Source: a virus. From it: a DNA stretch of 52,318 nucleotides. The notes below the pieces were generated by a model, which was not told the DNA's origin, made no database searches, and saw nothing but the letters and a program-made list of their open reading frames with translations. The translations under genes were made by a program, and so were the position numbers. Positions within the stretch are counted from its first letter, which is position 1. Each line of letters starts with the position of its first letter. This document shows, piece by piece, positions 1,799 through 19,127 of the stretch. The stretch is from positions 1-52,318 of IMG/VR virus record IMGVR_UViG_3300006870_000021, one strand, 5' to 3'.

Positions 1799-2340
1799 GG
1801 TATTTCCTTTTGACTTATTTGAAGTACAATTCTAGGTGTAAGTCCTATATTAACACTTCCGTGTAAGTCATTGTCTTGATCGTACCTAAACAAGTCACCT
1901 GACGCATATCCGCTAACAAATTTATTTTCGTGTATAAACACATGCCCAGGTTCATAATCTTTCCATGGCATCCAAAATCTATAATTATTGTCGTGTACAT
2001 TTACAGTATCTCTGTGTAGCGGCATAAACTGTCCCGGCATCTGCTTTACTATCCACCAGTCTCCTTGTAAATATTTGTTAAGCTCGCCCATATCTAAGTC
2101 AAAAGGACAGTTACGATTATCAAATATTTCAGCCATGATTAGATTATTTCCATACGGACCATTAGTAAACATATCGGCTTGGTTATCATCTGTGGCTAGT
2201 GTTTGGTCTACATTAATTTCAACGTCATCATCTTTGCCGTCATGATCTTTCCAAGGACTAATCTCTATACCCTTAGTAGAAATTAACGTATCTATCCATT
2301 CTTGTTTAACTAAGTGATTAAAATTACCGTAAAATTTCAT
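1795..2340 (-). CDS. 2OG-Fe(II) oxygenase-like protein, array copy 1
   Basis: This is a predicted double-stranded beta-helix dioxygenase. From the ATG at 2340 it has 181 residues with H109-x-D111 (PLHRD), H160 (DLHGS) and R170 (TPRIVLQ). That is the order of two metal His, metal Asp and 2-oxoglutarate Arg in this superfamily. The upstream ATG at 2355 is rejected because it would bury the GGAG ribosome site that lies 7 nt before 2340. The four paralogues also begin with M-[KEI]-x-[YF]-x-x-N. It overlaps the SGNH gene upstream by 17 nt. The substrate is unknown, and these folds can also act as small-molecule or protein hydroxylases. Confidence 0.72.
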   Translation of the reverse strand: MKFYGNFNHLVKQEWIDTLISTKGIEISPWKDHDGKDDDVEINVDQTLATDDNQADMFTNGPYGNNLIMAEIFDNRNCPFDLDMGELNKYLQGDWWIVKQMPGQFMPLHRDTVNVHDNNYRFWMPWKDYEPGHVFIHENKFVSGYASGDLFRYDQDNDLHGSVNIGLTPRIVLQISQKEIP

Positions 2341-3070
2341 ATAAGTGCTCCGCATATTTTATATGAGCATCTTTATTTGGATGCCCCCAGGCTAGTCGTT
2401 CTTCACAAAAAAAATCTAAACCTTTATCTGTTAAAAATTTAGATTTACTTTTTTCGTATAAATCTAATATTATAGGCATAGATGAAATAATATTATTATT
2501 CATAGCAGGAACAATATTTATATTGTAGTATTCTAATACTTGTAAGTTTTTGACAAAATCCCAAGATATTCTGTCATCCGAAAACCAATCTATTAGTGCC
2601 TTGTCAGTCTGTTCATTAATAACAGGTTTTATATCTCCTGTATCTTTTACTCCTAATAAACCTTTGTACGGCCATAATAATGATGGTAACTGAAAAGATT
2701 CTACAGTTTTATTAAATATTGCATTGCGTGTTGCTTTAGTGAGTGAGACAATTACTATATCATTGTTAGTAAACTTATAATTGTTTTCAAAAACTTGATA
2801 TACAATTTTATCTAAACTATTTCCGCTTTCGGCATAATTGCAACATTGTAAATTTAGTTTATCTGCTAATAATTGCGGCCAAGATATTAGTTTTTGTTTT
2901 TCTTTTATAGCGTTGTATTCTTCTTGTAGATTCTCAGTTTCTAACTTTTTAAAAAATTTACGTGGATCATCAGACGTTGCTAATCTATAGTCGTTAATAG
3001 ATAATTCGTGTGCTAATAATTCTTCACCAGTGGCATAACTACAACCAAATACATATAATTTACTCATCAT
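2324..3070 (-). CDS. SGNH/GDSL-like hydrolase-fold protein
   Basis: This 248-residue protein begins YVFGCSYATGEE, which resembles SGNH block I with Ser as nucleophile. YAESGNS follows near residue 80, like the block with catalytic Gly/Asn. RLAWGHPNKDAHIKYAE near the C-terminus resembles the Asp/His block. The family removes acyl groups from carbohydrates, lipids or peptides. It sits inside the oxygenase array between copies 1 and 2, sharing 11 nt with the gene before it and 17 nt with the gene after it. The start is one of two adjacent ATG codons (3070 or 3067), and the ribosome site does not decide between them. A second SGNH-like protein lies at 17167-17859. Confidence 0.6.
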   Translation of the reverse strand: MMSKLYVFGCSYATGEELLAHELSINDYRLATSDDPRKFFKKLETENLQEEYNAIKEKQKLISWPQLLADKLNLQCCNYAESGNSLDKIVYQVFENNYKFTNNDIVIVSLTKATRNAIFNKTVESFQLPSLLWPYKGLLGVKDTGDIKPVINEQTDKALIDWFSDDRISWDFVKNLQVLEYYNINIVPAMNNNIISSMPIILDLYEKSKSKFLTDKGLDFFCEERLAWGHPNKDAHIKYAEHLYEILR

Positions 3071-3614
3071 ATATTGTAAATTGAAACGTTAGTCTTTCTG
3101 ATAGCCCTATATTTGCTGCGCCGTGTATTGCAAATGGATCATCGAATTCATATACATCGCCTGCTTTATATGGCCCAATTAATTTATCATCGTATATTAA
3201 AATATGACCAGGTTCATAATCTTTCCAACTCATCCAATAACGTACACAATTTTTTTCAAACTTTGTTGTTCTATCGCTGTGTATAGGAAGTACATGACCG
3301 GGCTTATATTTAAATAGATTAAAATAAGTTCCGCTAGTTCCATCTTTGTATGTAGTTACCCAAGGCGGTATACCTATATCAAATGGAAAGTTTCTCCCGT
3401 CAAATATATAATACATTAAAGACTTAACATCGTAACCTGCATCGCCGTACTTTTTTTGAAAATCACAGAACTCTGCACGTTCTCCTCTTTCAATTGCACC
3501 TTCAATGTCATTATCAACAAACTCGGCTTTTGGTTGCTCTATGCCTTCATTCTCGAGAGCATATGCAATCCATTCGTCTTGTAGCCAGTCTCGATAATTT
3601 CCTATATACTTCAT
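3060..3614 (-). CDS. 2OG-Fe(II) oxygenase-like protein, array copy 2
   Basis: This paralogue of the neighbouring oxygenase-like genes has 184 residues, with H112-x-D114 (IHSDR), H164 (AIHGAANIG) and R174 (SERLTF). The shared KDYEPGHI motif near residue 131 occurs in copies 1 and 5 almost unchanged. The stop of copy 3 and the start of this gene overlap by 4 nt, so translation is coupled. The facial triad is complete, so it is probably catalytic. The substrate is unknown. Confidence 0.72.
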   Translation of the reverse strand: MKYIGNYRDWLQDEWIAYALENEGIEQPKAEFVDNDIEGAIERGERAEFCDFQKKYGDAGYDVKSLMYYIFDGRNFPFDIGIPPWVTTYKDGTSGTYFNLFKYKPGHVLPIHSDRTTKFEKNCVRYWMSWKDYEPGHILIYDDKLIGPYKAGDVYEFDDPFAIHGAANIGLSERLTFQFTIYDE

Positions 3615-4138
3615 TGTTCTTCCTCATATAATGTTACTTGTAAAACTACACGAGGTGTTAAACCTATATTTGCTGCTCCGTGTAGACCTTGTGCATCGTC
3701 GTATTCGTATATATCACCCTTTTTATAGTTTGTTACTATTTCATCTTGAAACTTAAATATATGTCCTATTTCCCAATCTTGTAAAGGGATCCAAAATCTC
3801 TGAGCATTTTTTTGTACAGTAGTGTGCGGGTCAACATGCATCGGCATAAAGTCTCCTGGCATCATTTTTGTTAACCACCAGTGTCTTGATCTTCCACATT
3901 TATGGAATTCTGGTAAATCAAAAGGACAATTGTTTTTATCAAACATTTGAAAGTAAGTAGCTGTTGGATCATATCCAGCATCGATTGCTTTTTGCCACTC
4001 TTTTTCTCCTTCAGGTCCCTGCGGCTTTCCTCCGTCTCTCGGCCTATGCAATCCTTCGTTTTCTAAAATTAATTTTCTCCAAGTATCGAGTGTTTCTTCA
4101 GATACATCTAAATTCTTCATGTTATCTATGTATTTCAT
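3611..4138 (-). CDS. 2OG-Fe(II) oxygenase-like protein, array copy 3
   Basis: The product has 175 residues with H101-x-D103 (MHVDP), H153 (GLHGAANIG) and R163 (TPRVVLQVT). The C-terminal half is very close to copies 1 and 2. The N-terminal third differs and is shorter, as if the array diversifies in the substrate-facing part. The ATG at 4138 follows a GGATGAAG purine run and overlaps the end of copy 4 by 17 nt. Confidence 0.72.
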   Translation of the reverse strand: MKYIDNMKNLDVSEETLDTWRKLILENEGLHRPRDGGKPQGPEGEKEWQKAIDAGYDPTATYFQMFDKNNCPFDLPEFHKCGRSRHWWLTKMMPGDFMPMHVDPHTTVQKNAQRFWIPLQDWEIGHIFKFQDEIVTNYKKGDIYEYDDAQGLHGAANIGLTPRVVLQVTLYEEEQ

Positions 4139-4688
4139 TTTTTACTTCATCCTTTTTATAATATGCAGAAACTTGCAATATTATACGAGTAGTCGAACCT
4201 ATGTTTATTGCTCCGTGTAGTGCTTTTGTTTCATTATACAAGTATAGATCACCTTTATTATATTTGCTTACGGTTATGTCTTCGTATACAAATATGTGTC
4301 CTGGGTCATATTCTGTTAATGGCATCCAATACCTTCGTGTGTTTTTGTCGTCACCTCTTGGATTATCTCTATGGACCGGTATATATTGTCCGGGATACAT
4401 TTTTATTATCCACCAAGTAAAGTCTTCATCTGGCTGAATCCAAGGAGGATCAATTTTAAAACTTAATCCATCCTTTTCTAAAAGTTGAAATTGTACTAAG
4501 TCAGTTCCGTAAACTTTATAAATTTCCTCCTCAGACTTATCCATCGGCTCACGCTTGCCGTTTTCAATTTCCTCAAAAATATTTATATTTTGAAACATGT
4601 CTTTCGGTACGGACAACCCGGGTGTGTTTGTTATTTCTTCAATCCAAGAAGGATTGATCCAGTTTTTATAATTTTTAACAAACTCCAT
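4122..4688 (-). CDS. 2OG-Fe(II) oxygenase-like protein, array copy 4
   Basis: From the ATG at 4688 the product has 188 residues. An in-frame TTG one codon upstream is rejected because AAGGA is spaced about 6 nt from the ATG. Triad residues are VHRD near 106-108, LHGAINIG with His near 158, and TTRIILQVS with Arg near 168. Two Trp residues precede the metal motif (TWWIIKMYPGQ), as in copies 1 and 5. It overlaps both neighbours by 14-17 nt. Confidence 0.72.
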   Translation of the reverse strand: MEFVKNYKNWINPSWIEEITNTPGLSVPKDMFQNINIFEEIENGKREPMDKSEEEIYKVYGTDLVQFQLLEKDGLSFKIDPPWIQPDEDFTWWIIKMYPGQYIPVHRDNPRGDDKNTRRYWMPLTEYDPGHIFVYEDITVSKYNKGDLYLYNETKALHGAINIGSTTRIILQVSAYYKKDEVKNEIHR

Positions 4689-5376
4689 CAATGTTCCTTG
4701 AAGGTTTATAGTCTACTATTTGTAAAATACATCTGTTTGTTGTACCTAAATTGCAAGCACCGTGCCAGTCACCTGCGTAGTCAAACTTATACACATCACC
4801 TTTTTTATAATTAGAAACTTCTTTATCACCTATAATAAATATGTGTCCTGGTTCGTAATCAGTCCAAGGCATCCAATATTTATTTATAGGTATATCAGGT
4901 TTTGCTCTATCAGTATGTACAGGCATTAAGTCTCCTGGTTTCATTGTACTAAACCACCAAGTAATGTGTTTACCTTTATAGTCTAAAAATGGCGGAGGAT
5001 TGTCTAAAAGGTCAAATGATAAATCAAATTTTTCTAGTAGACTAAAATGATTCGCATATACATCATATCCTGAGTTTGTATACATGTCATATTCTTCGCC
5101 CATTTCTCGATCCGGATCGAGATAATCTATATGTATCTTTGCATGTTTAACTGCTTTATCATTAGGATCTAATGTGTTTAGATGTTCTTGTATATTTAGA
5201 TAATCTTCCTTTGTATGTATGTAACTTATGTCTTGTATAAATTCACGTAGTATCGGATTAAATCTTGCTTCATTTCGCAAACTATGTTTTGGCATTTCAA
5301 ACCCAGGATTTGACAACACTTCTTTACACCAGGTATCCGGTATCCAATCTGCATAATTACCAATATATTGTATCAT
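4675..5376 (-). CDS. 2OG-Fe(II) oxygenase-like protein, array copy 5 (long)
   Basis: This is the longest paralogue at 233 residues, with about 45 extra residues before the core (the segment near 45-100, rich in charged residues). The core has H154-x-D156 (VHTDR), H205 (DWHGACNLG) and R215 (TTNRCILQI), plus the YEPGHIFI motif. The ATG at 5376 follows a GAGGAAATTAA ribosome site. It is the first gene of the five-copy array in the direction of transcription. Confidence 0.72.
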   Translation of the reverse strand: MIQYIGNYADWIPDTWCKEVLSNPGFEMPKHSLRNEARFNPILREFIQDISYIHTKEDYLNIQEHLNTLDPNDKAVKHAKIHIDYLDPDREMGEEYDMYTNSGYDVYANHFSLLEKFDLSFDLLDNPPPFLDYKGKHITWWFSTMKPGDLMPVHTDRAKPDIPINKYWMPWTDYEPGHIFIIGDKEVSNYKKGDVYKFDYAGDWHGACNLGTTNRCILQIVDYKPSRNIDGVC

Positions 5377-5405
5377 TTAATTTCCTCTACGGAAATACTT
5401 ATGTT

Positions 5406-5966
5406 TTATAAATTAGTTTCTATGTTAAATCGAACACTTAATAAGTATCTAGGGTGTTTTGAAAAATTTGTAACACTATGTGGTGTAGTTACTTTTACAA
5501 CTTTTGGTTTATCTATAGAACACTCGTCTATAACTTTAGGATTACCTATCCATATTGGTCTTAAATGTTGCGAATCATCTGCTGGTAAATTTGGTTTATT
5601 TGTAGGAGTTGCGTATCCAATGTCATAATTACTATCATACCAATACATTGTTGTATCTTGGCAATTAAATATAGGAATATTTAATGCCCAATGTTGATCC
5701 GGTGTAGGAGGATTATGTCCATCTATATGAACTCGTAAACTTTCATTTCCGCTTAACCCACCTAGCACACATATTTTAATTTTTGGATCTTCTGAGAATA
5801 TATCGATGATATCATCTATAATTTTTTCTCGTAACCAGATGATATCATTGTCTGTTTTATCAAATACTGTTATTGATTGCCCGATTAGATCTTTATTAAT
5901 ATACTTGCTAAAACGTTCCTGTATATCTATAAAATTTTTTAAATCTATATCATAGTGTAAGGGCAT
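5406..5966 (-). CDS. Aspartyl/asparaginyl beta-hydroxylase-like 2OG-Fe(II) protein
   Basis: The 186-residue product has H80-x-D82 (RVHIDG) followed by PPTPDQHWALNIPIFN, then H163 (TPHSVTNF) and R173 (HPRYLLSVRF). This layout is that of the Asp/Asn beta-hydroxylase branch of the superfamily and is distinct from the five-copy array next to it. Its ATG shares one base with the TAA of the nitroreductase gene, so the two are coupled. It may be a target-specific hydroxylase, but the substrate cannot be read. Confidence 0.65.
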   Translation of the reverse strand: MPLHYDIDLKNFIDIQERFSKYINKDLIGQSITVFDKTDNDIIWLREKIIDDIIDIFSEDPKIKICVLGGLSGNESLRVHIDGHNPPTPDQHWALNIPIFNCQDTTMYWYDSNYDIGYATPTNKPNLPADDSQHLRPIWIGNPKVIDECSIDKPKVVKVTTPHSVTNFSKHPRYLLSVRFNIETNL

Positions 5967-6625
5967 TAATATTCTACGACTGGAACTTCTTGTCTTTTAT
6001 TTGTAGGATATAAAATTTCATCGTCAACTTGATGTTTTCTGCGGCTTACACCTTCTTGTTTAAACCCTACACCCATTATCAATAAAGGATCATTCTCTAA
6101 ATTTAGTGCTTCTTTAACTTTTACATGATCCATACTTAAACAACAACCAGTTGCATAACCTAACATCTGAGCAGTTAAATTTAAATAACCAGAAACTATA
6201 CCTAAAGCTACATTTTTATCAAAATCTTTCGGTTCGTCAGCAATTCTTTTTTCTTTAAAGTGTGATTCTACTTTATAATAGTCTTCAAAAACTACAACAA
6301 GATTTGCTAATGTTTGACTTTGTGTAGCATCTCCCATTTCGTGATATTTGTCTTCGTCTCGTGGATGCGGATCAACTATTTTAGTACCATCTTCTGCAAT
6401 AGCGTACGGTGCACCGTGTGTTGCTGCGTGTACTTTTTCGATAGTCTCTCTATCTTGTATAAAGTGAACCTTATAGAATGCCACATTTTGTAAACTAGGA
6501 GCTTGTGTTAAGCTTGTTTTAAGTATGTCTAAATCTTCTTGAGGTATTACTTTATCTAAATCCCAATTACGCTGACAGTGTTGGCTGCGAATTATAGCTT
6601 TGCTTAAATTTTTTCTTATGTCCAT
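5966..6625 (-). CDS. Nitroreductase-family FMN oxidoreductase
   Basis: The product has 219 residues. The N-terminal block AIIRSQHCQRNWDLDKVIP with APSLQN is the FMN-phosphate-binding region of the nitroreductase fold. The later segment ALGIVSGYLNLTAQMLGYATGCC and the LIMGVGFKQ strand match the usual C-terminal half. Members reduce nitro groups, quinones or flavins with NAD(P)H, and some fragment FMN. An AGGAG site precedes the ATG. It is the first gene of the leftward run ending at 828 and is divergent from the radical-SAM operon at 6668. It may supply reductant to the redox enzymes around it, which is inference. Confidence 0.75.
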   Translation of the reverse strand: MDIRKNLSKAIIRSQHCQRNWDLDKVIPQEDLDILKTSLTQAPSLQNVAFYKVHFIQDRETIEKVHAATHGAPYAIAEDGTKIVDPHPRDEDKYHEMGDATQSQTLANLVVVFEDYYKVESHFKEKRIADEPKDFDKNVALGIVSGYLNLTAQMLGYATGCCLSMDHVKVKEALNLENDPLLIMGVGFKQEGVSRRKHQVDDEILYPTNKRQEVPVVEY

Positions 6626-6667: not shown

Positions 6668-7750
6668 ATGTTCCATTTTAACGAGCTAACACAAATCCAT
6701 CTTGAAATTACAAATCGCTGTCAAGCAAGCTGTCCTATGTGTAATAGAAATATTAGAGGCGGTTTAGATAATCCTTTAATAAAGAATAATGATTGGACAG
6801 TATCTGATTTTAAGAAAATTTTATCTCACAGTGTTTTAGATAAAATCACTGGTTTTTATTTCTGTGGAAATTTTGGCGATCCTATTATTAATAATGATTT
6901 AATAGATATGTGCAAATATGCAGTAGAGTATAAACCTGAAATAAACATCGCTATACATACAAATGGTAGCGCACGTACTACACAGTGGTGGGAATTGTTA
7001 GCCCAAACATTACCCAAAGATAGTAGAGTAGTTTTTGCACTGGATGGTTTAGCCGATACACATTCATTATATAGGATCGGTACTAGTTTTGAAAAAATTA
7101 TTTCAAATGCTCGGGCATTTATTAATGCAGGAGGAACTGCTGAATGGTGTTTTATTAAATTTAAACATAACGAGCACCAAGTAGGAGAAGCAGAAAAATT
7201 AGCAAAAGAAATGAAATTTAAACATTTTTCAGTAAAGAATAGTAGTCGATTTATCGGTGAACCAAAATATGCTGTTTTAGATTCAAATGCAACTACTACA
7301 CATTATATAGAACCTCCTAGTGATAACAAGATGTCTTTTATAAGTAACGATGTTATTAAAAACTATAAAGAAATAGTTAATAATAGTGAGATAAATTGTT
7401 ATGTTTTACACACGAAGGAAATATATATTGATGCTAATAGGATAGTATATCCTTGTTGTTATCTTGCAAGTGTGCCGTTTACAAATATACCAAAAGATGA
7501 GACAACTCAGGCTCGAATAGATATAAGAACACAGCACGAAGAATATATTACAGATCTTGGCGGATATGATAATATTAATTCTTTACAAAAATCTATCGAA
7601 GATATTGTAAATGCAAAGTTATGGCATACAGTTTGGAACAAATACTGGTTTAAACAAAAAATGATTACCTGTGCAAGAAGTTGTGGCACAATTAAAGAAA
7701 TATCAAAACCTTATGAGCAGATTGTTACTACGGAAACTATAAATGGATAA
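6668..7750 (+). CDS. Radical SAM enzyme (SPASM-like C-terminal Cys region)
   Basis: The product has 360 residues. C18-x3-C22-x2-C25 (CQASCPMC) is the 4Fe-4S/SAM-binding motif. GNFGDP near residue 75 and TNGS near 107 match the following SAM-contact strands. Cysteines near 250-275 (INCYVLH, YPCCYL) and near 338-345 (TCARSCG) resemble an auxiliary-cluster region. It overlaps the next gene by 8 nt and starts a three-gene radical-SAM operon. Enzymes of this architecture modify peptides or small molecules, and no precursor is seen beside it. Confidence 0.8.
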   Translation: MFHFNELTQIHLEITNRCQASCPMCNRNIRGGLDNPLIKNNDWTVSDFKKILSHSVLDKITGFYFCGNFGDPIINNDLIDMCKYAVEYKPEINIAIHTNGSARTTQWWELLAQTLPKDSRVVFALDGLADTHSLYRIGTSFEKIISNARAFINAGGTAEWCFIKFKHNEHQVGEAEKLAKEMKFKHFSVKNSSRFIGEPKYAVLDSNATTTHYIEPPSDNKMSFISNDVIKNYKEIVNNSEINCYVLHTKEIYIDANRIVYPCCYLASVPFTNIPKDETTQARIDIRTQHEEYITDLGGYDNINSLQKSIEDIVNAKLWHTVWNKYWFKQKMITCARSCGTIKEISKPYEQIVTTETING

Positions 7751-9125
7751 AATTAAATCTTACCAAACTGAAATTAAAAAAGTAAGTGGTAGTGATACGT
7801 TTTGTGTTCTTCCTTGGATACACTTAGCAACTCGACCAAATGGTGATATGCGATTATGTTGTACAGCAAATGCTAGTGGAGCAGGCGAAGACCATGAAGT
7901 TGGTTTAATAAAAGGAGACGACGGTCGTCCTGCAAACTTTGCTAAGACTACTCCTATGGAAGCGTGGAACAATCAATATATGCGTAATGTAAGATTAGAT
8001 ATGCTTAACGGAAATAAACCAGCAAGTTGTATGGGATGTTATAAAGAAGAAGAACAAGGAATTGTTAGTAAACGTATATGGGAAACTGGAACGTGGTATA
8101 AAGACGAAGGTATAGATATACCAGATCTTATTAAACAAACTGAAGAAGACGGCACTGTTCCTGAACAATTGCAATATTTAGATTTAAGGCTTGGTCATAC
8201 TTGTAACATTAAATGTGTAATGTGCAGTCCGCACGATAGTTCTAAATGGGTACAAGATTGGAAGCTGCTGTATCCCCAGTTAGAAAATCCTGAAGTAAAA
8301 CAACAAATGGGCTGGGAGAAAAAAGAATTTAATAATAAGTGGCATGAAAAGGACACATTTTGGGGAGAGTTATATAAACAAATTCCTAATTTAAAACAAG
8401 TATATTTTGCAGGCGGCGAGCCTTTAATGATAAAAGAACATAAAATGTTTATTAAAGAAATTATCCGCCAAGGCTATCAATCTAGTATATTGCTAAGATA
8501 TAACTCTAATGGATTATTAGTAGATAATGAACTTATTGATCTGTGGAGTAAATTTAGAAAAGTAAAGTTTGCAGTAAGTGTTGATGCAATAGAACAGCGA
8601 GATGATTATATAAGATATCCAACTAAATTTGACGAAGTAAGTCGTACACTACATTTATTAGATTCAACACCTGATAATATACATGTTAGTATGGCAACCG
8701 CAGTACAAATTTTTAACATTAAACATCTACCAGATTTTATAAAATGGAAAGTTAATCAAAATTTTAAAAAAATGAATGTTGGTTTAGTTGGTGGAGTTCT
8801 TATGGGCGGCGGTTTAGTAAATATGCACTTGGTACATATACCTACATTTTTAAATATTACAATACTTCCAAAAGAAGATAAAGAAGATGTACACCGTAGA
8901 TTTGCAGATTTTAAAGAGTGGCTTTGGAATAACTATACTCAAGATGACGATTATTGGAATGTTAATCCTTATGGTTGGAGACGCTGGGAAGCATTACTAG
9001 AACATATGGATTCGGTTGATAATAGTTATAGGCTTAGCGGTTTTAAAGAATATGTAACTAAATTAGATAAAATAAGAAATCTAAACGCCGCTTCTGTATT
9101 TCCTGAACTGGCACACTTGTTATGA
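7743..9125 (+). CDS. Radical SAM enzyme with N-terminal auxiliary-cluster domain
   Basis: The 460-residue product has an inverted layout. A Cys-rich auxiliary-like module comes first (C21, C39, C40, C96, C99; FCVLPWIHL, RLCCTA, CMGCYKEEE). The radical-SAM core follows, with C154-x3-C158-x2-C161 (CNIKCVMC) and AGGEPL near 225. The same layout occurs at 10909-12213, so the two are paralogues. It overlaps the first operon gene by 8 nt and the third by 4 nt (ATGA). Confidence 0.8.
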   Translation: MDKIKSYQTEIKKVSGSDTFCVLPWIHLATRPNGDMRLCCTANASGAGEDHEVGLIKGDDGRPANFAKTTPMEAWNNQYMRNVRLDMLNGNKPASCMGCYKEEEQGIVSKRIWETGTWYKDEGIDIPDLIKQTEEDGTVPEQLQYLDLRLGHTCNIKCVMCSPHDSSKWVQDWKLLYPQLENPEVKQQMGWEKKEFNNKWHEKDTFWGELYKQIPNLKQVYFAGGEPLMIKEHKMFIKEIIRQGYQSSILLRYNSNGLLVDNELIDLWSKFRKVKFAVSVDAIEQRDDYIRYPTKFDEVSRTLHLLDSTPDNIHVSMATAVQIFNIKHLPDFIKWKVNQNFKKMNVGLVGGVLMGGGLVNMHLVHIPTFLNITILPKEDKEDVHRRFADFKEWLWNNYTQDDDYWNVNPYGWRRWEALLEHMDSVDNSYRLSGFKEYVTKLDKIRNLNAASVFPELAHLL

Positions 9126-10036
9126 AGTTAACAAAAATTATAACAACACGACCTTACAACGAATTAGATATCACATTCTGGCCAACTGATATTTGTAACT
9201 TTAATTGTTCATATTGCTTTCCGGGTAGTAAGGATGGCATATATAGATTTGAAAAAAATTTAGATATTGTATTAAACAAATTTAAAAAGTTATTTGCAGA
9301 TTATTCTTCGATAGGTAAAGATAAATTTAATATTACTATAGCAGGCGGAGGTGAACCTACACTTTGGCCTATACTTGATCAATTTTGTTCTCAAATTACA
9401 TTATTAGAAAATGTAAAAATTCAACTAGTAACAAATGGTAGTAGAACTTTAAAGTGGTGGAGTAATAATGCAAAATATTTAGATAAGGTACATTTAAGTT
9501 GTCATTCTGAAGACGTTGATATAGATCATTTTATTAATGTTGCAGACGTACTTACACAAAAAGGCACTGAAGTTACGGCAATGATGCTTATGGATGCAAA
9601 ACGTTGGGATCTCTGTGTTAGTTATATTGATAAGATGCAACATAGTAAAGAACAATGGAAAATTTTAGCCAAAGAAGTAGTTGCTGCGCCTGGACATGAT
9701 ATAGATAGTTATACTAATGAACAACTAGAATACATAAAACGTTCTACTAAAAGATTTGTATTTTTTGAAAAGGATATAAGCGAATACAGGACAGTAGAAA
9801 GTTTAGGATTTTATGATGACAAATCTTTTCCTGCATATAATAATACCTATATAGCAAACAAACAAAATTATTTTAAAGGTTGGAACTGTAATATGCCTGT
9901 TGAACGGATAAGTGTCGACGCAGGACTTAATATAAAAGGAAGTTGTGGAGTAAACTTTGATAAACTAGACTCTATTATTTGCCCGCTAGACTGCTGTGAT
10001 TGTCAACCTGATACACATATTACTAAGTTTATTTAA
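9122..10036 (+). CDS. Radical SAM enzyme
   Basis: The product has 304 residues. C25-x3-C29-x2-C32 (CNFNCSYC) is the cluster motif, and AGGGEPTLW near 77-86 is the glycine-rich SAM strand. The C-terminus holds many Cys (WNCNM, GSCGVN, ICPLDCCDC), likely an auxiliary cluster site. It is close in organisation to the opposed gene at 10029-10916, and the two converge with an 8-nt overlap. It is the third gene of the operon and is joined to the previous one by ATGA. Confidence 0.78.
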   Translation: MKLTKIITTRPYNELDITFWPTDICNFNCSYCFPGSKDGIYRFEKNLDIVLNKFKKLFADYSSIGKDKFNITIAGGGEPTLWPILDQFCSQITLLENVKIQLVTNGSRTLKWWSNNAKYLDKVHLSCHSEDVDIDHFINVADVLTQKGTEVTAMMLMDAKRWDLCVSYIDKMQHSKEQWKILAKEVVAAPGHDIDSYTNEQLEYIKRSTKRFVFFEKDISEYRTVESLGFYDDKSFPAYNNTYIANKQNYFKGWNCNMPVERISVDAGLNIKGSCGVNFDKLDSIICPLDCCDCQPDTHITKFI

Positions 10037-10916
10037 ATTTTGTTAAAGGAATATCAGCAGCACAAGTACAAAATTTACGTGTGCAGTCTATATACTCGGT
10101 AGGGCGTGTAAAACTACCGTTGTAAATGTTACCTAAACTACCTCCTACTCGACAAGTTGCTCTATGTACTTCACCGTCCCAATTTATCATTAAACTTTCA
10201 ATGCCAGCAGCACACTTCCATCCCTCAAATTGATTACGTTTTGTTTTAATTATGTCATTAGCATGTGCTAGTTCTTCTTCGTCAACAACACAATTTGGTT
10301 TTGCAGTTGCATTTACACTTAACAGCCATTCTAAGTCCTGTGCATCATATCGCATATCGTCAAACCAGTCATGCTTCTCTGTCCATCTAATTCTACGTAA
10401 TGCAAACGGAATACCATACCCTACTAACCGTGCTGTTGCTTCTTTTACTCTTTTCATATGGTCATGATGAGCCATTACATTTACATGAAAGGGTATCTTC
10501 TGTGTATTCTGCTGATTAAACCAAAGTATGTTGCCTAATGCTCTTGTCCAACTTTCGTTGTCAAAGTGTAAACTAAAAACATAATGATCAACTGGTGCTT
10601 CTGCATACCATACAGGTTTTCGTAATCCGTTAGTTGTTATATTGACCCAACTTAGTTTTGATTTTGTATGTTTAACTAATTCTTCGAAGTGAGGATGTAC
10701 TGTTGGTTCTCCGCCTGTAAAACTAATTCTCACAGGTTTATCAAATTCTTCTAATATGTCAACTGTATTTTTTAATGTATCTATATTAGTGTGTGGAGAT
10801 GTCATGTCGTGTATCTCAGGAGGACAATACGCACAGTCTAAATTACAACGCTTTCCGAGGTTCCATTCAATTTTAACAGAGTCTTGATGCGGCCACCTAC
10901 TAGTTACTTTATACAT
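10029..10916 (-). CDS. Radical SAM enzyme
   Basis: The product has 295 residues from the ATG at 10916. An in-frame TTG three codons upstream is less likely. C24-x3-C28-x2-C31 (CNLDCAYC) binds the catalytic cluster, and SFTGGEPTVH follows near 65. The tail has GWKCAAGIES, HRATCRVGGS and DCTRKFCTCAA, a probable auxiliary-cluster region. Its start overlaps the end of 10909-12213 by 8 nt, giving a two-gene radical-SAM unit behind the QueC-like gene. The layout resembles the convergent gene at 9122-10036. Confidence 0.78.
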   Translation of the reverse strand: MYKVTSRWPHQDSVKIEWNLGKRCNLDCAYCPPEIHDMTSPHTNIDTLKNTVDILEEFDKPVRISFTGGEPTVHPHFEELVKHTKSKLSWVNITTNGLRKPVWYAEAPVDHYVFSLHFDNESWTRALGNILWFNQQNTQKIPFHVNVMAHHDHMKRVKEATARLVGYGIPFALRRIRWTEKHDWFDDMRYDAQDLEWLLSVNATAKPNCVVDEEELAHANDIIKTKRNQFEGWKCAAGIESLMINWDGEVHRATCRVGGSLGNIYNGSFTRPTEYIDCTRKFCTCAADIPLTKFK

Positions 10917-12213
10917 AAGGAGCAAACTCAGGGTTAGAATCTAAAAAACTTTGATTGCGAGTCTTGTCTAAAGCACGATTAAAATTTATACAATCTTGCC
11001 AATACTCACTTAGATCTCTTGCTTTTAAAAAATTAATGTTGTCGGCCACTTGCCTCTCAGTAATAGGTATAAGCACAGGATGATCTCGTACAATCGGATA
11101 ATCACGGAAGGTCTCTTGTATGGTTTGTAAGTTTTCAATTACTTTCTCCTTTAATGCATTAGGCAATGTTTGTGCGCTTAATGGGCGTGGATAGTTTACT
11201 CTATGCGAATAAAACACAATGCCCATTTCGTTTAAAAAGTAATCTATTACTTTGTCAATTTGCATAATATTATTTGCTTGTACAGTAAACGCACCTACTA
11301 CTCTATTTACATTAGGAAAGCTTTTAAACACTTTTACATTTTCTTCAACTTCTGTAAAATCACCATTACCTCTAATATATTCATATGTGTCGTGTATACC
11401 GTCTATGCTTACATTTACAGCAATGCTACGAAACTTAGGCCAATAGTCGTGTATAGTACGTCCGCCTTTTATGCCTAGCGTAGTGCCGTTAGTAGCATAT
11501 TTTAGTTCAATGTTGTCTCCATACTCTGCAAGTCTGTCTAGTATCTTATAGTGGTACGGATCCATTAACGGCTCACCACCTGCAAATTCTACACGTCTAA
11601 AGTGTGGTAGTAATTTCTCAAATGATGACCACCAGTTGTCTGAGTTATCAAACGGGCCAATATATTTGCCCGGAGTGTCAGTAAGTTTGTCGATAATTGG
11701 AATTAAGATATTGTTTTCTTTTTCGTAAAAAGGCTTTACTTCATTCCAGTCTTTCCAACTAGTTGAATCAAGTGGGTTACACATTCGACATTTTAAATTA
11801 CATAGATTGTTTAGTTTAATTTCCATAGTAGGAAGTTCAAACGGCATTGTAAAATCGTCTTGTAGTGCATCTAACGCATCTGGATATAAGTTTATACGTG
11901 CTTCGGGTATTACTCCCGCTATATGACGCTGTCGTAAGCTCTCTACACCCTGATCTTCTAAATCAAAACACGGCTTGCAAACATCAGGTCGTTCGTTGTT
12001 TAACACTTGCTGGCGAACTTCTTGCATGGATTTATTATTCCATGCATCTTCTAAAGATTCGTTTTGGATATAACCGATCGGCTGGCTACGGCAGCACACT
12101 TTTATAGCACCGTCTTCTCGTGTTGCTAAACCTGTAAAAGGGTGCATACAAAATGTACAACTATTTGATTTGATCAATAGCCCATTCTCTCTCTTTACAC
12201 CAAAAACATTCAT
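10909..12213 (-). CDS. Radical SAM enzyme with N-terminal auxiliary-cluster domain (paralogue of 7743-9125)
   Basis: The 434-residue product has an N-terminal Cys module (CTFCMHPF, VCCRSQ, CKPCFDLEDQG), then C138-x3-C142-x2-C145 (CNLKCRMC) and FAGGEPLMD near 215. The match to 7743-9125 extends through DAWNN(K/Q) and the LATR..G segment. The start is uncertain. The ATG at 12213 has no ribosome site and would overlap the QueC-like gene by 53 nt. A TTG at 12177 after GAGAGAATGGGC is an alternative. Confidence 0.78.
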   Translation of the reverse strand: MNVFGVKRENGLLIKSNSCTFCMHPFTGLATREDGAIKVCCRSQPIGYIQNESLEDAWNNKSMQEVRQQVLNNERPDVCKPCFDLEDQGVESLRQRHIAGVIPEARINLYPDALDALQDDFTMPFELPTMEIKLNNLCNLKCRMCNPLDSTSWKDWNEVKPFYEKENNILIPIIDKLTDTPGKYIGPFDNSDNWWSSFEKLLPHFRRVEFAGGEPLMDPYHYKILDRLAEYGDNIELKYATNGTTLGIKGGRTIHDYWPKFRSIAVNVSIDGIHDTYEYIRGNGDFTEVEENVKVFKSFPNVNRVVGAFTVQANNIMQIDKVIDYFLNEMGIVFYSHRVNYPRPLSAQTLPNALKEKVIENLQTIQETFRDYPIVRDHPVLIPITERQVADNINFLKARDLSEYWQDCINFNRALDKTRNQSFLDSNPEFAPYV

Positions 12214-12832
12214 TACATATTGGAACAGACTGGCCTGGTGTATATGTTAAATAATCTATTTCGTCAAACTCACCTTCGCAACTTCTAGTTAAGTTTAGTA
12301 AGTCCTTAATATTATGTTCGTAGTATTGTTTTATAATCCAGTCTTTACTAGTATACACGAAAGGATGTAAAATGTCAACCCCCATATGCTTCATATGTAA
12401 TGGTAAAACTCCTTCGTTACGTTCAGGAAGTGCGCCGGGTATATCTATATCTGGATTTTTGTTAACAGCAGCATACCATGCATCTAAATTATAAGTATGT
12501 GCCACCCATTCGTTATGAGCTCGTAATATTATTCTATTTCCAGGTTTAAGTGCTCCGTATTCGTCGGTAATAAATGTTGTATTAGGTTCTTCCATTTCTG
12601 GAGGAATAAAATTTTCTATATGTTCTATAGGATTTTTAAACCTTTGTCGGAACCATTCCACAACTTCGATAGCAATATACCTTTGCCATGGTCGAGTTTT
12701 CCAACAACGTATTTGTGTAGTAAAGTATATTTCTGCATTAGTTTGTGATAATATAAGATATGATAATAACGCACTATCGGCACCGCCACTTAAACTTATT
12801 CCTATACGTTTCCAGTTTTTGCTAACATCCAT
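12161..12832 (-). CDS. QueC-like PP-loop ATPase
   Basis: The product has 223 residues. SLSGGADSALL (residues 13-23) is the PP-loop of N-type ATP pyrophosphatases. Four cysteines, C185, C206, C209 and C212 (CNECFWCKERE), match the zinc site spacing of QueC, the 7-cyano-7-deazaguanine (preQ0) synthase. HPFVYTSKDWIIKQYY is also QueC-like. It could supply the preQ0 step missing from the folE/queD/queE/DpdA cluster 20-28 kb away. Its neighbours are radical-SAM enzymes, so a different amidation or thiolation in this island is equally possible. No Shine-Dalgarno is seen before the ATG. Confidence 0.6.
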   Translation of the reverse strand: MDVSKNWKRIGISLSGGADSALLSYLILSQTNAEIYFTTQIRCWKTRPWQRYIAIEVVEWFRQRFKNPIEHIENFIPPEMEEPNTTFITDEYGALKPGNRIILRAHNEWVAHTYNLDAWYAAVNKNPDIDIPGALPERNEGVLPLHMKHMGVDILHPFVYTSKDWIIKQYYEHNIKDLLNLTRSCEGEFDEIDYLTYTPGQSVPICNECFWCKEREWAIDQIK

Positions 12833-12857: not shown

Positions 12858-12865
12858 TATAAATA
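12858..12865 (+). promoter_or_regulatory. Late promoter octamer TATAAATA, leaderless arrangement
   Basis: The exact T4 late consensus TATAAATA ends at 12865. If the octamer spans -13 to -6, position +1 is 12871, the first base of the ATG of the next gene. No Shine-Dalgarno sequence is present. This argues that the in-frame ATG at 12865, which overlaps the octamer, is not used. Confidence 0.55.
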
Positions 12866-12870
12866 TGTTT

Positions 12871-13542
12871 ATGATAAAAGATACACAATATAGTGTTGAT
12901 ACAAAATTTATCGATCAAGCACTCGACACTACAGATTTTAATACAGGTAAACATACATTAAACAACCCTACTGGTGATTTTTTCTATGATCCTTGGGAAA
13001 TATCTCCTAAGTACAAAGGAACAGTGTGGGATTGGATATTAAGTACGCTTAGAGAACCACACGGTGAAGCAAGAATTATTACAATGGAAAGTAAGAGTAA
13101 CTATGTTGGTCATAGTGATATTGATGATAGATGGCATCTAAATCTTAGCGGAATAGATTGTTATTTAATTGACATTAGTAATGAAACTATGCATAAATGT
13201 GTAAAAGACGGCAAGTGGTATTTAATGGATACAGGTGTTATACACTCAGCAGCTAATTTTGGTAATAGATACAGGCACCAGTTAGTTGTAAGAAAATTAT
13301 TAAATAAAGTTAATATAACTGAAACTAAAACAATAAGAATTGTTCCTTTAATAAAAGATTTAGACGAAGTTCGATACGAATTTGATAAAAATTTAAGTCC
13401 TGTTTTAAATAAAGCAAATAAACAATATCAAATAAGCGATTTTAGATTAGAGAATGGATTACCCGTATTCAAGTGCGGGCAACTACTTTCTACTATAATT
13501 AAAAATAACTTAGGTACTTGTTTAGGAATGGAGACAGAATGA
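12871..13542 (+). CDS. 2OG-Fe(II) oxygenase-like protein
   Basis: The product has 223 residues from the ATG at 12871, chosen because the earlier ATG at 12865 lies within the promoter octamer. H81-x-D83 (GHSDID), H125 (GVIHSAANFG) and R135 or R141 (RHQLVVRKL) give a complete triad. About 80 residues follow the core, with no recognised domain. It overlaps the next oxygenase-like gene by 4 nt (ATGA). Confidence 0.65.
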   Translation: MIKDTQYSVDTKFIDQALDTTDFNTGKHTLNNPTGDFFYDPWEISPKYKGTVWDWILSTLREPHGEARIITMESKSNYVGHSDIDDRWHLNLSGIDCYLIDISNETMHKCVKDGKWYLMDTGVIHSAANFGNRYRHQLVVRKLLNKVNITETKTIRIVPLIKDLDEVRYEFDKNLSPVLNKANKQYQISDFRLENGLPVFKCGQLLSTIIKNNLGTCLGMETE

Positions 13543-14096
13543 AACTTTTTATCGATAACTTAGCAGATAGAATAGATCTAGATGCGCTTATAGACACTTG
13601 CGTTAAAGCCGGTGGACATGAGCAATACGGGCCAAAGCCCATCGAAGAAGGTAAACATTATCATGAGGAGTATATACATCAAGTAAATTTAATGGAAAAG
13701 GCAGGATACTTAGGTAACGGACAATGTAGGTTTAAACATTATTATCCTGATCAACAGTTTCCTAAAAGCATTTCTTTACAAGTTGCAGAAGCAGCAGGTG
13801 TTGAACATTTAGGAAGTTTTATAAGTAGTGTTGATCCTGGATATTGTGCACCTTGGCACACAGATATCTTTAATAATTATTATAGAGAAATGGAAGACGA
13901 AGGTGTTGATATGCGTAGATTTGTAATGTTTATCTCAAAACCGCAACCTGCTGTAGGCTTTGTAATTGAAGATGAGTGCTTTTATATGGAAAAACAGGGT
14001 AATTTATATGAATTTCCGCATATAAAAAATTGGCATGCTGGATTTAATGCAGGACTAGAAACAAAATTTATCTTCACGCTTACTGGTAGGAAGTGA
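13539..14096 (+). CDS. 2OG-Fe(II) oxygenase-like protein
   Basis: The start is the ATG at 13539, which overlaps the preceding TGA and follows GGAG at 6 nt. An upstream in-frame ATG at 13518 is rejected. The 185-residue product has H107-x-D109 (PWHTDI), H166 (NWHAGFNAG) and a Lys at 176 (ETKFIFTLTG) where most relatives have Arg. The Lys variant is known for some 2OG enzymes. It converges on the B12-type radical-SAM gene, with a 42-nt overlap of coding ends and no visible terminator. Confidence 0.6.
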   Translation: MKLFIDNLADRIDLDALIDTCVKAGGHEQYGPKPIEEGKHYHEEYIHQVNLMEKAGYLGNGQCRFKHYYPDQQFPKSISLQVAEAAGVEHLGSFISSVDPGYCAPWHTDIFNNYYREMEDEGVDMRRFVMFISKPQPAVGFVIEDECFYMEKQGNLYEFPHIKNWHAGFNAGLETKFIFTLTGRK

Positions 14097-15674
14097 TACT
14101 AATTTTTTGTGCAAGAATTTAATTAGCGGCTTGAAATATTTTTCTTCAATCTGTTCCTTCATAAGTTGTTGTTCGTCTACACCAGACATGTATTCGTAAT
14201 ATTCGCGTCCAGTTTTAAAACTCATTAGTTTATTAAAATCAAAATGATCATTGTCTATACAACTTATATAAAAGAAATTTCGTTTAAAATCTATATGAGA
14301 GTCTAATCGCTTTTGCCACTTAACTGCAAGGTCAGTTGCCTTCTCAAATGTATCAATATCAGTTCCGTCATTTTTAATCCAGCGCCACGGTACATCTTCG
14401 TATGGAAACTCATAGCCGTATTTTTCTGCTTCTAGTTCAAATGCAGCGTTAAATCTATGTTTTGTAAACTCGGTATGTTTTATTATACGTAGGGGTGTTG
14501 TGTTAATGTGTCCTACCGGTCTATCAGGTCTATCAAAATACTTACAACTATTCTCAAATGCTTCTACAGTATCTTTTGGCAACCCGCAGATCATCCCAGT
14601 CATTATCCAAGTATCATGACCCCATACCCTAGCACACTCTTCTAACGTATCAGTAATGCGTTTGGGATCCATCCCCTTACCAATAACTTTACCTGCTTCT
14701 CTATTAAGTGTTTCTATGCCAAAGTAGACTTCTCTTATGCCTATATCTTTTGCAAGTTGAATATGATCTCTATTATTAACTATAATGTCTAATCTCATGT
14801 AGCACCAGAATGCAGGCTTAAACGGTAAACGATCAACAACACGCTTCACCATTTGTAATTTTTCAGTACTATCATTAAACGTGTCATCTACTATTGTGTA
14901 CTTCCAAGTACCAAAGCGTTTCCAATTATCCATTAGTTCATTGTATAAACATTCTTCAAATTTTAAATAATCACTTACACGTTTTTGTCCTATTAGCGGA
15001 AAACTGCAAAATTTACAATTAAATCTGCAACCTCGTCCTACTTCTAAAAGCAATGTTTCACTTGGAAGTATAAATGCTTCTGGTTCGTAATCTATCCTGC
15101 TACTCCTAAAATCCCAACTAGGCGATTGTCCTTTCTTGTCATAGTCAATAATTTTAGGATATGAACCAACATTGCCTTTTTTAAGATCTTTCATATAATC
15201 AACTATCATCGTTTCGGCATGTCCGATAAAAACATTATCTATACCAGGAATGTTAATATACATAAACGCCTTAGCTCCGCCTAATATAATTTTACACTTA
15301 GGAGATAAACTTTTTATCTTATTAAAGTATAAGTCGACGTTTGGTCCTGCAAACTCCATACTTAAACTGTCTAATTCATTTTCACTATTTGGATTAAATC
15401 GCATAGATGGCTTACTTGGTTCTCGATGGCTTGATGATCCGTCTGGTAATATAAACGGAAACCATGTACTACTAAATCCTACAGCTAATGTATCTTCATT
15501 CATTGCAAGATCGAGTATTTCACAAAACCTGTCGTAATTTATATAATTTGAAAAGTCAATTACTAGAACAGAATAACCATGCTCACGTAATTCTGTAGCA
15601 ATTCTATGCGAACCACTAGCCCTAGAATAAGTTTCTAGGTCAGGCATATCTCCAAATAATATTATATCATACAT
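14055..15674 (-). CDS. B12-binding-type radical SAM protein
   Basis: The product has 539 residues. Residues 1-180 form a Rossmann-like region as in cobalamin-binding radical-SAM proteins (IILFGDMPDLETYSRASGSHRIA, CKIILGGAKA, VFIGHAE), but the classical DxHxxG motif is not evident. The core follows, with C216-x3-C220-x2-C223 (GRGCRFNCKFCSFP), TIVDDTFN and YFGIETLNREAGKVIGKGM. This is the Elp3/MiaB-like core common to methyltransferases and methylthiotransferases. The substrate is unknown. It is the end of the leftward run from 19811. Confidence 0.75.
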   Translation of the reverse strand: MYDIILFGDMPDLETYSRASGSHRIATELREHGYSVLVIDFSNYINYDRFCEILDLAMNEDTLAVGFSSTWFPFILPDGSSSHREPSKPSMRFNPNSENELDSLSMEFAGPNVDLYFNKIKSLSPKCKIILGGAKAFMYINIPGIDNVFIGHAETMIVDYMKDLKKGNVGSYPKIIDYDKKGQSPSWDFRSSRIDYEPEAFILPSETLLLEVGRGCRFNCKFCSFPLIGQKRVSDYLKFEECLYNELMDNWKRFGTWKYTIVDDTFNDSTEKLQMVKRVVDRLPFKPAFWCYMRLDIIVNNRDHIQLAKDIGIREVYFGIETLNREAGKVIGKGMDPKRITDTLEECARVWGHDTWIMTGMICGLPKDTVEAFENSCKYFDRPDRPVGHINTTPLRIIKHTEFTKHRFNAAFELEAEKYGYEFPYEDVPWRWIKNDGTDIDTFEKATDLAVKWQKRLDSHIDFKRNFFYISCIDNDHFDFNKLMSFKTGREYYEYMSGVDEQQLMKEQIEEKYFKPLIKFLHKKLVSLPTSKREDKFCF

Positions 15675-15675
15675 A

Positions 15676-16491
15676 CTAGTAATTATCTAAATGATCTATA
15701 CCTAATTGTTTTCTAAATGATTCTGTAAACTTACCGTCTATGCGCAACCCATAAGTTGGCGACATCACTCTGTTACCACCGTGCCAGTCTTGATCATTCC
15801 AGAATGCAGCGCGAGTGTTTATACCGTGTTTCATCTTTTTATCAGGATCCCATATATAAAACTGATTCCTTGTATCTGGACGTATATGTATAAATTCGTT
15901 ATTGTGTGGCTCGTACCTATCTTTAGGCCATATACCATTATGGGCGCCTAAATCTCTATGTTCAAACGGCAATCCATCTGCTTCGCAATGAAAGAACATA
16001 ACACGACCAAATGATTCAAATATCTCATTAGTTTTAAAGTCTTCTAGCCATTTCATTACATTAGGAAAGTATTCAGACTCTTCTGTTTTCTTTTTCTCAC
16101 CCGGTCTATCATCCCAGTCGCCTTCTTCATATAAAAAATAGTATATGTAAGGATCATATGCCTCCATTGCCATCTTTAAATAACGAGTTATTAGGTTACG
16201 TTGTTTATAATCCTTAAAGTCAGTAGGCCATATTTTCATACCTTCTACTTTTATAGGATCATCATCTGGTAGTGCTTGAAATTCTTCCATTGCAGCATAT
16301 ATAGGTTTCCAATTGAGAATATAACTCATATCTTTAAATTCAAAACCCGGCTTCATCCAAGTGCCTTCTTTTGCAAACCATCTTGCTTCAGCAAATCCTC
16401 GAATTATTTCAGGTTGTAATTTTTCAAATGTAGACATATCTATATATGGTTCTACATCAATATATGTATTACTGTTAATTCCTTTAATCAC
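15676..16491 (-). CDS. 2OG-Fe(II) oxygenase-like protein (large, GTG start)
   Basis: The start is a GTG at 16491 that overlaps the TAA of the upstream gene by 8 nt, with AAAGGA upstream. The 271-residue product has H178-x-D180 (FEHRDL), H237 (DWHGGNR) and R250 (YGLRIDG). The N-terminal 150 residues are rich in Trp, Tyr and acidic residues and are not recognised. The order of motifs supports a dioxygenase of the same broad class as its neighbours. Confidence 0.62.
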   Translation of the reverse strand: MIKGINSNTYIDVEPYIDMSTFEKLQPEIIRGFAEARWFAKEGTWMKPGFEFKDMSYILNWKPIYAAMEEFQALPDDDPIKVEGMKIWPTDFKDYKQRNLITRYLKMAMEAYDPYIYYFLYEEGDWDDRPGEKKKTEESEYFPNVMKWLEDFKTNEIFESFGRVMFFHCEADGLPFEHRDLGAHNGIWPKDRYEPHNNEFIHIRPDTRNQFYIWDPDKKMKHGINTRAAFWNDQDWHGGNRVMSPTYGLRIDGKFTESFRKQLGIDHLDNY

Positions 16492-17176
16492 TATAAATTT
16501 CCTTTGCTTGATTTATAAAACTATCTGTATAATTTGTTCTAAAACTCTCAAAACATAAATGTTGTAGAACAACTAGTGGTTCAGGATCGTTCCAACTTAT
16601 ACCCATTGCTTCGACTTGTTCTTTCATTATACTTTGACGTGTACTATATATATGACTTGCATGATTTGCAATGCTAACTGGTCCTTCTGTATTCAGATAA
16701 TGAAAGAAGTAGTTAAAACTTTTTAATTTACCATCTATAATAAAATAACTAGACGGATGTAAACTATACTTGTACATTCCAATATTTTTATGCGCCTGTA
16801 AGATATCTAACATTTGTTGTTCCCAGTTAGGTATAACTTTGCTATAGTTCTCTACATTACATTTTGCTTTATTCCAAAAATCAATACCGTCAATATCAAA
16901 ATATATTTTCTTTTCTTTGGTACTTATGGTAAACTCTGGAATTAAATGTTGATAACCTTTTAGTTTCATAAATCTTAAACCAAATGATTCTCTATTCATC
17001 TTTTCTTGCATAAGATTAGGATCAACTACTTCGTTTTGTCCTCCGTGATATCCTTCGTCGTTGTAGTACCATTGACAAAATGTTTTTTTATCGTCTGATA
17101 TAAGACTTGTGTAAATTAAGTTGTTTCTACACTTGCCTTCGCCGGGAATATCATTCCAATAATAATTCATTTCCAT
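16484..17176 (-). CDS. Kinase-fold-like protein, probably inactive
   Basis: The product has 230 residues. The segment SLHPSSYFIIDGKLKSFNYF (near 135-155) has the shape of a kinase or aminoglycoside-phosphotransferase catalytic region (HxDxxxxN then DGKLKxIDF). The catalytic Asp, the Asn and the DFG-type Asp are replaced (HPSSYF, SFNYF). FTISTKEKKIYFDIDG could be an earlier hairpin. I infer a pseudokinase or a scaffold. The start could also be the ATG at 17170, which overlaps the upstream stop as ATGA. Confidence 0.4.
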   Translation of the reverse strand: MEMNYYWNDIPGEGKCRNNLIYTSLISDDKKTFCQWYYNDEGYHGGQNEVVDPNLMQEKMNRESFGLRFMKLKGYQHLIPEFTISTKEKKIYFDIDGIDFWNKAKCNVENYSKVIPNWEQQMLDILQAHKNIGMYKYSLHPSSYFIIDGKLKSFNYFFHYLNTEGPVSIANHASHIYSTRQSIMKEQVEAMGISWNDPEPLVVLQHLCFESFRTNYTDSFINQAKEIYSD

Positions 17177-17859
17177 TCTTTTACTAACTCGGTTAATATA
17201 TCTGCAACTTTTTTATGCGTTAAAGGACCCGGATGCAAGTTATCTTTTCCTTTATCTAGGATTGGTGTAAGTTGATTAATGTCAAGAACTTCGTTAGAAT
17301 TGAATGTAAATTCTATACTAGGAATATCTTTAATCTTATCTCGCACGTTGTCTATTACTCTTTTGTTTACTTTTATTATACTTTCGTCTGCTAATAATCT
17401 CAAATATTCTTTATATGCCTTAGGATATAACATTTTACAACCAAAGTGATTATTATGATAAAATATATTGTCCAGTCTTGCCGGTGACCATAATACTCTG
17501 CTACCAAATGCTGTATAATGTTGCCACCTTATGCTGCTAGGCCATGCAATAATTATTCCTTTTGGTGTTAACCTTTTATTCAACAAGGAGTCTATTTCGT
17601 CGGCTACTGTCATAGGTCCTGCACCGTTAATACCTAAATTTAGGACTTTTATTCCTAATTGTTTTTCGAGTATATAACCACAGTTTTCTTTATCTTCAAC
17701 ACCTATGCCCCATACGTGACTGCAACCAAAAAACCAAATTGCATTGTTTGCATATTTTTTAAAATTTGTCTGTCCTAATTTCCTTCTTTTTCCGTATACT
17801 CCGAGATATTCTTTTATATTTGATTTTTTAAATTCTATTAACCTTTTAAGATAGTTCAT
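17167..17859 (-). CDS. SGNH/GDSL-like hydrolase-fold protein
   Basis: The product has 230 residues. WFFGCSHVWGIGVEDKEN is block I with the nucleophile Ser, LNLGINGAGP matches the Gly-containing block, IIIAWPSS is a central strand, and DNLHPGPLTHKKVADIL carries the C-terminal Asp/His. These are better preserved than in 2324-3070. Such enzymes esterify or de-esterify sugars and lipids. Overlaps of 4-10 nt tie it to its neighbours. Confidence 0.65.
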   Translation of the reverse strand: MNYLKRLIEFKKSNIKEYLGVYGKRRKLGQTNFKKYANNAIWFFGCSHVWGIGVEDKENCGYILEKQLGIKVLNLGINGAGPMTVADEIDSLLNKRLTPKGIIIAWPSSIRWQHYTAFGSRVLWSPARLDNIFYHNNHFGCKMLYPKAYKEYLRLLADESIIKVNKRVIDNVRDKIKDIPSIEFTFNSNEVLDINQLTPILDKGKDNLHPGPLTHKKVADILTELVKEWK

Positions 17860-19126: not shown

Positions 19127-19127
19127 A

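Follow-up and report, generated by a model that had tools for sequence, protein, structure and literature searches.

Five genes for radical S-adenosylmethionine (SAM) enzymes lie together in the IMG/VR virus record IMGVR_UViG_3300006870_000021: do they belong to one unit, how far does it extend and on what might it act? The window analysed here is the whole 52,318-nucleotide stretch of that record, which comes from an uncultured marine T4-like virus. An earlier note on this DNA described the genes, at 6668–12213, as two facing operons holding a duplicated pair of a large and a small enzyme and, together with a QueC-like ATPase, as a two-step peptide- or nucleobase-modifying unit. We find that the real unit is wider than this interval, since the QueC-like gene (Q, 12161–12832) belongs to the − operon: Q-large(E)-small(D) faces A-large(B)-small(C). 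The components, with protein lengths in amino acids (aa) and model quality as the predicted local distance difference test score (pLDDT), are as follows.

6668–7750, + strand: A, radical SAM, 360 aa, C-terminal cysteines; W_rSAM_matur-like, far below the cut-off
7743–9125, + strand: B, large N-twitch radical SAM, 460 aa; NF033640 396 bits, with PF13186 and PF04055; clade support 99
9122–10036, + strand: C, small radical SAM, 304 aa, C-terminal Cys cluster; conserved cysteines and small-enzyme tree
10029–10036: 8-nt convergent overlap of the end of C (10036, +) with the end of D (10029, −)
10029–10916, − strand: D, small radical SAM, 295 aa, twitch/SPASM-like fold; model pLDDT 89.5
10909–12213, − strand: E, large N-twitch radical SAM, 434 aa; NF033640 326 bits; clade support 100
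12161–12832, − strand: Q, QueC-family ATP pyrophosphatase, 223 aa, remodelled signature; alignment of 38 orthologues, model pLDDT 92.6 and fold comparisons

Most of the earlier description of the layout stands. All five radical-SAM open reading frames (ORFs) were recovered and pass the PF04055 cut-off (5/5), as does a sixth gene at 14055–15674; the two operons face each other and share the 8-nt overlap, and each runs from a large to a small enzyme (A-B-C and Q-E-D). The longest ORF for the D gene begins at 10925, and the start of E may be further downstream, orthologues differing at that end. We compared eight window proteins all against all (28 pairs, shuffle z-scores). B and E are whole-length homologues (27% identity across 453 aa, E 6e-49, z 73), and so are C and D (21% identity across 301 aa, E 4e-8, z 16); the third-ranked pair, A-E, has a z of 8.8, and every pair besides B-E and C-D falls below 9. 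Within each pair the likeness thus clearly exceeds that of the remaining radical-SAM pairs in the comparison, and the outcome that would have refuted the earlier note, pairs no more alike than random radical-SAM proteins, is not what the alignments show. Each core carries one auxiliary Cys module, as had been claimed: a SPASM/twitch module N-terminal to the core in B and E (PF13186) and a C-terminal cluster in C and D. Both B and E also exceed the 170-bit cut-off of N_Twi_rSAM (NF033640), a family named without a function. In 22 B/E sequences C21, C39, C40, C96 and C99 and the core C154, C158 and C161 are invariant; in 24 C/D sequences the core C24, C28 and C31 and the C-terminal C235, C255, C278 and C283 are invariant.

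This arrangement recurs in related viruses. Scanning IMG/VR with Q gave 199 relatives, of which 80 were taken and reduced to 43 nonredundant loci, the counts using those loci with enough flank; with C as the query 61 loci were recovered, and with D 78. E comes after Q in 41/41 nonredundant loci and D after E in 40/40. On the facing side, B is convergent in 28/34; C is present in 26/34, A in 25/34 and c7, which is methyltransferase-like by appearance, in 26/34. Each of 13 records (13/13; picked via Q, C or D, or the window itself) holds one Q. A large enzyme precedes a small one on the same strand 56 times in 40 viral loci, compared with 10 expected from gene-label shuffles, and the reverse order occurs 0 times, although the shared ancestry of the loci means that this statistic overstates their independence. 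In four divergent contigs (4/4), Q, with 25–39% identity to the window Q, touches a same-strand N-twitch radical-SAM gene; label shuffles of these contigs gave the Q-then-large order as frequently in 36/1000 cases, so that this order is suggestive only.

Q models as a QueC-family ATPase that has kept the ATP loop and the zinc cysteines and has lost the other canonical QueC motifs; that the cysteines would bind zinc is proposed by analogy. In the alignment of 38 orthologues SGGADS (S15–S20) and the four cysteines of CE-(x)-CxxCxxC are invariant, with a spacing of C-x20-CxxCxxC in the window protein, unlike the canonical C(x)8CxxCxxC. Most orthologues keep HPF(x)4K, and they have strong motifs of their own (QxRxWKTRPWQ type); YxQxHxxE, VPxRN and YPDC, the canonical QueC motifs as given in an excerpt of PMC13329287, are absent from the alignment. 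No Pfam family matched Q at E 0.01, and hence neither did PF06508, and a sequence search of solved structures returned nothing. By its modelled fold it is nevertheless of the QueC family, as the earlier note had proposed: VIA-align gave Z scores of 15.4 for Bacillus subtilis QueC, 14.7 for a second QueC, 14.3 for Cap9, 13.6 for MesJ and 12.9 for QatC, and the top Foldseek matches were Cap9 in the PDB and phage 7-cyano-7-deazaguanine synthases in BFVD. Q has the feature set of Cap9 and QatC (QueC fold, CE...CxxCxxC and PF(x)4K). Its fold, SGGxDS, four cysteines and PF(x)4K are common to QueC, Cap9 and QatC, the PF(x)4K being similar to that of Cap9 and the cysteine spacing to that of QatC (structural details in the available part of PMC13279940), whereas it lacks the canonical substrate motifs and has radical-SAM genes as constant neighbours.

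In the bacterial sequences searched Q was not encountered. A scan of 84,980 bacterial species genomes, resting on two peptide patterns, gave 155 pattern matches and no relative; the fetched flanks of 63 bacterial loci with N-twitch members held no Q-like protein. In another locus (L375, 12544–14878) a B12-type radical-SAM gene is immediately followed by the gene for a second, different QueC-like protein, a hint that the pairing of QueC-like and radical-SAM proteins arose more than once.

The two operons appear to differ in history. When 106 N-twitch proteins were placed in one tree, B (12 rows) and E (13 rows) formed two well-supported clades that are not sisters, and B groups with bacterial bins (47% identity to the window B in Halobacteriovoraceae, 43% in a gammaproteobacterial bin and 42% in Neisseriaceae). 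A single B+E clade was rejected by the approximately unbiased (AU) test (p 9e-7), and a recent duplication was rejected on the trees and this test. B and E represent two old, distinct lineages between which bacterial proteins fall; the duplicated pair of the earlier note survives as an architecture and is not supported as an event inside the phage. In the small-enzyme tree D is one clade (support 98) and C nearly one, with several more paralogue groups. The A-B-small order occurs in one bacterial genome record (L238), and A and B plus a small enzyme occur in two others (L223 and L233), which could be viral DNA inside bins; Q was not found in the three bacterial genomes with A, B and a small enzyme, in a search without a positive control. 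As A-B-small is present in bacterial records where Q was not found, we infer that Q-E-D and A-B-C are sub-modules of different history. In the Halobacteriovoraceae bin A-B-small is followed downstream by two GT2 genes; a plasmid search gave no match for B. A 3.5-kb contig in a Thermoplasmata bin (L222) has a B at 68% identity amid phage-like radical-SAM neighbours and is probably viral DNA that was binned wrongly.

The window is a fragment of a phage represented by the 127.6-kb contig G001. The capsid gene product gp23 (PF07068) was found in 7/13 related contigs and in neither the window nor G001, both of which are fragments; the nearest GenBank relatives of the window DNA polymerase are in Sinorhizobium phage Phosso (50%) and Agrobacterium phage Atu_ph07 (45%). 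The 20 related contigs have 5–21 radical-SAM matches each. To the left of the window, the next 37 kb of G001 hold three tandem B12-type radical-SAM paralogues (L289 1667–6035; G001 54466–58834), a further N-twitch and a further small radical-SAM gene, two c11 proteins, an epimerase, a class-III aminotransferase, a PfkB kinase, a cytidylyltransferase and a cupin, with genes of structural appearance beyond. The c11 protein (L046 1664–3886) consists of repeated units with a 'VHGVKG' motif and has no Pfam match; its last domain was found in 12/12 other long viral contigs and 3/3 bacterial genomes tested, and not in the window fragment. An Mtd_N tail-tip gene lies at 21844–23301 of the window. The islands are mosaic, C, A and c7 varying among loci. 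The cassette sits in a swappable island beside tail and sugar genes that resembles a host-recognition cluster. Its immediate neighbours are the following.

5966–6625, − strand: nitroreductase-like gene, divergent from A; PF00881 40 bits
12865–13542, + strand: c5, aspartyl/asparaginyl-hydroxylase-like, divergent from Q; PF05118 20.4 bits, just under the cut-off of 22.6
14055–15674, − strand: F, flanking B12-binding-type radical SAM, 539 aa; PF04055 55.5 bits, B12-radical-SAM families below cut-off

The c5 gene is divergent and immediately upstream of Q in 30/40 nonredundant loci. Paralogues of a 2-oxoglutarate (2OG)/aspartyl-hydroxylase-like protein form a dense array on both sides of the radical-SAM block (1795–5966 and 12865–19811), and those scanned gave only weak Pfam matches.

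What, then, might the unit do? We tentatively favour, at rather less than an even chance, the view that it is a tailoring cassette whose target is a small molecule or glycan, housed in the host-recognition-type island of marine T4-like phages. Q would use ATP to activate a carboxylate, making an amide or similar bond; E and then D would oxidize or rearrange the scaffold of the Q product by radical chemistry, and A, B and C of the facing operon would act likewise on the same scaffold. For this scaffold we envisage a small molecule or sugar, which may be used to decorate the surface glycan or lipid of the infected cell, or the phage adhesins, and the decoration might alter receptor use or superinfection. 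The direct basis of this reading is the composition, order and overlaps of the genes, their cofactor residues and predicted folds, and the content of the island; the fixed Q-E-D order, the frequent presence of B, C and A opposite it, the sugar genes in G001, Mtd_N, c11, the GT2 genes and the lack of a precursor also speak for it, as do the tied D fold and the pelagimyophage clusters described below. Several points weigh against it. Substrate and product are proposals only, the likeness to a host-recognition cluster rests on tail-tip, sugar and radical-SAM content and not on a position between VrlC and gp14, and the label 'glycosyltransferase-like' for c11, which has no Pfam match, comes from its appearance and from one relative that matches GT2 weakly. 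More distant N-twitch genes occur in varied contexts in bacterial chromosomes, the D fold fits a peptide maturase equally, and FolE and QueE on the long contigs keep a deazaguanine link possible.

The D model is closest to BlsE (Z 18.6, 264 residues aligned), a nucleoside-sugar enzyme, and SkfB (Z 18.5), a maturase of ribosomally synthesized and post-translationally modified peptides (RiPPs), which is a tie. It is worth considering that the target is a protein, with the radical-SAM enzymes and the 2OG/aspartyl-hydroxylase-like proteins acting on tail adhesins or a host protein without a separate precursor gene. Twitch/SPASM folds are common in peptide maturases (SkfB, SuiB, anSME and EpeE), the block is near the Mtd_N gene and Asp_Arg_Hydrox-like proteins are its neighbours, but in the loci listed Q-E-D has no adhesin as a constant companion, and the adjoining region stands out for its sugar and aminotransferase genes. 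We regard protein modification as unlikely.

The same phage has genes for 7-deazaguanine chemistry.

31585–32478, − strand: QueE; phrog_2076, 177 bits
33284–33970, − strand: FolE; phrog_2197, 153 bits
38892–40430, − strand: TGT/DpdA-like protein, named by appearance; no NCBIfam, Pfam, PHROG or PDB sequence match

Together they suggest 7-deazaguanine DNA or RNA chemistry in the phage, at least about 19 kb from the cassette. Q could accordingly be imagined to take 7-carboxy-7-deazaguanine (CDG) from the phage FolE/QueE route to an amide, nitrile or conjugate that E and D would alter, a route that we judge unlikely. In its favour, the nearest folds to Q are QueC, Cap9 and QatC, FolE was found in 13/13 contigs, a strong QueE in 12/20 (including all 11 longer than 115 kb) and the TGT/DpdA-like protein in 10/13, and 18/20 contigs have no PF06508 match. 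On the other hand, Q lacks the three canonical substrate motifs, QueD is present in only 4/20 contigs and QueE is found uncoupled from Q, which weakens the nucleobase-modifying unit of the earlier note. QueE relatives of 86–92% identity occur on long contigs without Q, and among GenBank phages QueE relatives are in 135 records and Q in none at E 1e-5. Among 13 QueE contigs of at least 48 kb, three had a full-strength Q, two a divergent and two a very weak one, and six none (one of 203 kb), these absences being soft because the contigs are fragments; the three with full-strength Q were already known to carry it, and the test for Q covered the other ten.

Recent reports describe QueC-family enzymes of bacterial immunity that attach nucleobases to proteins. 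A bolder form of the tailoring proposal, in which Q would join a carboxylate (perhaps the QueE-derived 7-deazaguanine acid) to a sugar, lipid or protein and the N-twitch/twitch partners would rework the adduct, seems decidedly unlikely; if true, it would be a virus-made modification of the cell surface or virion of a class not described before.

That the genes serve no common pathway, being independent auxiliary enzymes collected in a hot spot, would suit the mosaic islands and the variable C, A and c7, but sits badly with the invariable succession of E and D after Q and with the same-strand N-twitch neighbour of Q in all four divergent contigs (with the shuffle frequency given above); we consider this very unlikely. 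Counter-defence or nucleotide chemistry, such as viperin-like products or interference with QueC-family immune systems, is highly improbable: pVip models do match the cores of B, C, D and E, and the QueC fold of Q is common to Cap9 and QatC, but the pVip matches cover mainly the radical-SAM core, NF038283 gives 27.7–52 bits against a cut-off of 180, short of a prokaryotic viperin, and Q scores 13 bits with the PADLOC QueC model. A RiPP cluster with its precursor located elsewhere, to which the twitch/SPASM architecture might point, can be all but dismissed, as no 20–110 aa ORF in the gaps within 7 kb of Q was conserved in 80 loci (the largest small-ORF families had at most two distinct sequences) and the overlapping cassette genes leave no space for one in the window. 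Peptide modification in the RiPP sense is weakened accordingly; with no precursor ORF, and with close QueE relatives on long contigs without Q, a RiPP and an obligate 7-deazaguanine pathway are both poor fits.

The cassette has known counterparts, as swappable radical-SAM-rich modules of T4-like phages have been in print since 2010. The Campylobacter phages CP220 and CPt10 have an interchangeable radical-SAM module of five genes (excerpt of PMC2853527); they too are T4-related, and the five genes, which can be exchanged as one block, are accompanied by an amidinotransferase and nucleotide-diphospho-sugar transferases. CP21 and CP220 have distant C/D-like and A-like proteins, but, unlike the window, the 18.8-kb CP220/CPt10 region gave no QueC-like protein (extended profile) and no strong N-twitch match. 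Radical SAM is also mentioned for another Campylobacter phage (excerpt of PMC3322345). The available text of PMC7029224 describes host-recognition clusters of pelagimyophages with tail fibres, glycosyltransferases and radical-SAM cassettes, the cassettes distinguishing two clusters. Pelagibacter phage Mosig combines tail fibres with Asp_Arg_Hydrox, acetyltransferase, desaturase, nitroreductase and MoaA-like genes, the nitroreductase standing beside MoaA-like genes much as the window gene at 5966–6625 stands beside A; its 18.5-kb region gave no QueC-like or N-twitch match, and Q-E-D was not found there. The marine T4-like virus TARA_ERS488813_N000010 (183 kb, 12 radical-SAM genes; excerpt of PMC5332604) is similarly rich in radical SAM and is likened here by description only. 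Radical-SAM or queC genes are reported from marine viromes in the portions available of PMC7150976 and PMC9301287, without this cassette, and searches of the open-licence literature found no paper on the Q-E-D triad. What the window adds is a distinct QueC-family branch in one operon with two radical-SAM enzymes; it recurs across many marine T4-like viruses known only from uncultured sequences, whereas scans of bacterial species genomes and of GenBank phages did not find it. Q, E and D form a compact, testable set for the products of these long-unexplained phage modules.

Rfam and tRNA scans of the window were empty. A conserved 230-aa protein, c3 (16484–17176), has no Pfam match in the window, nor does an orthologue have one in Pfam or PHROG; its cluster is present in 69/80 Q loci.

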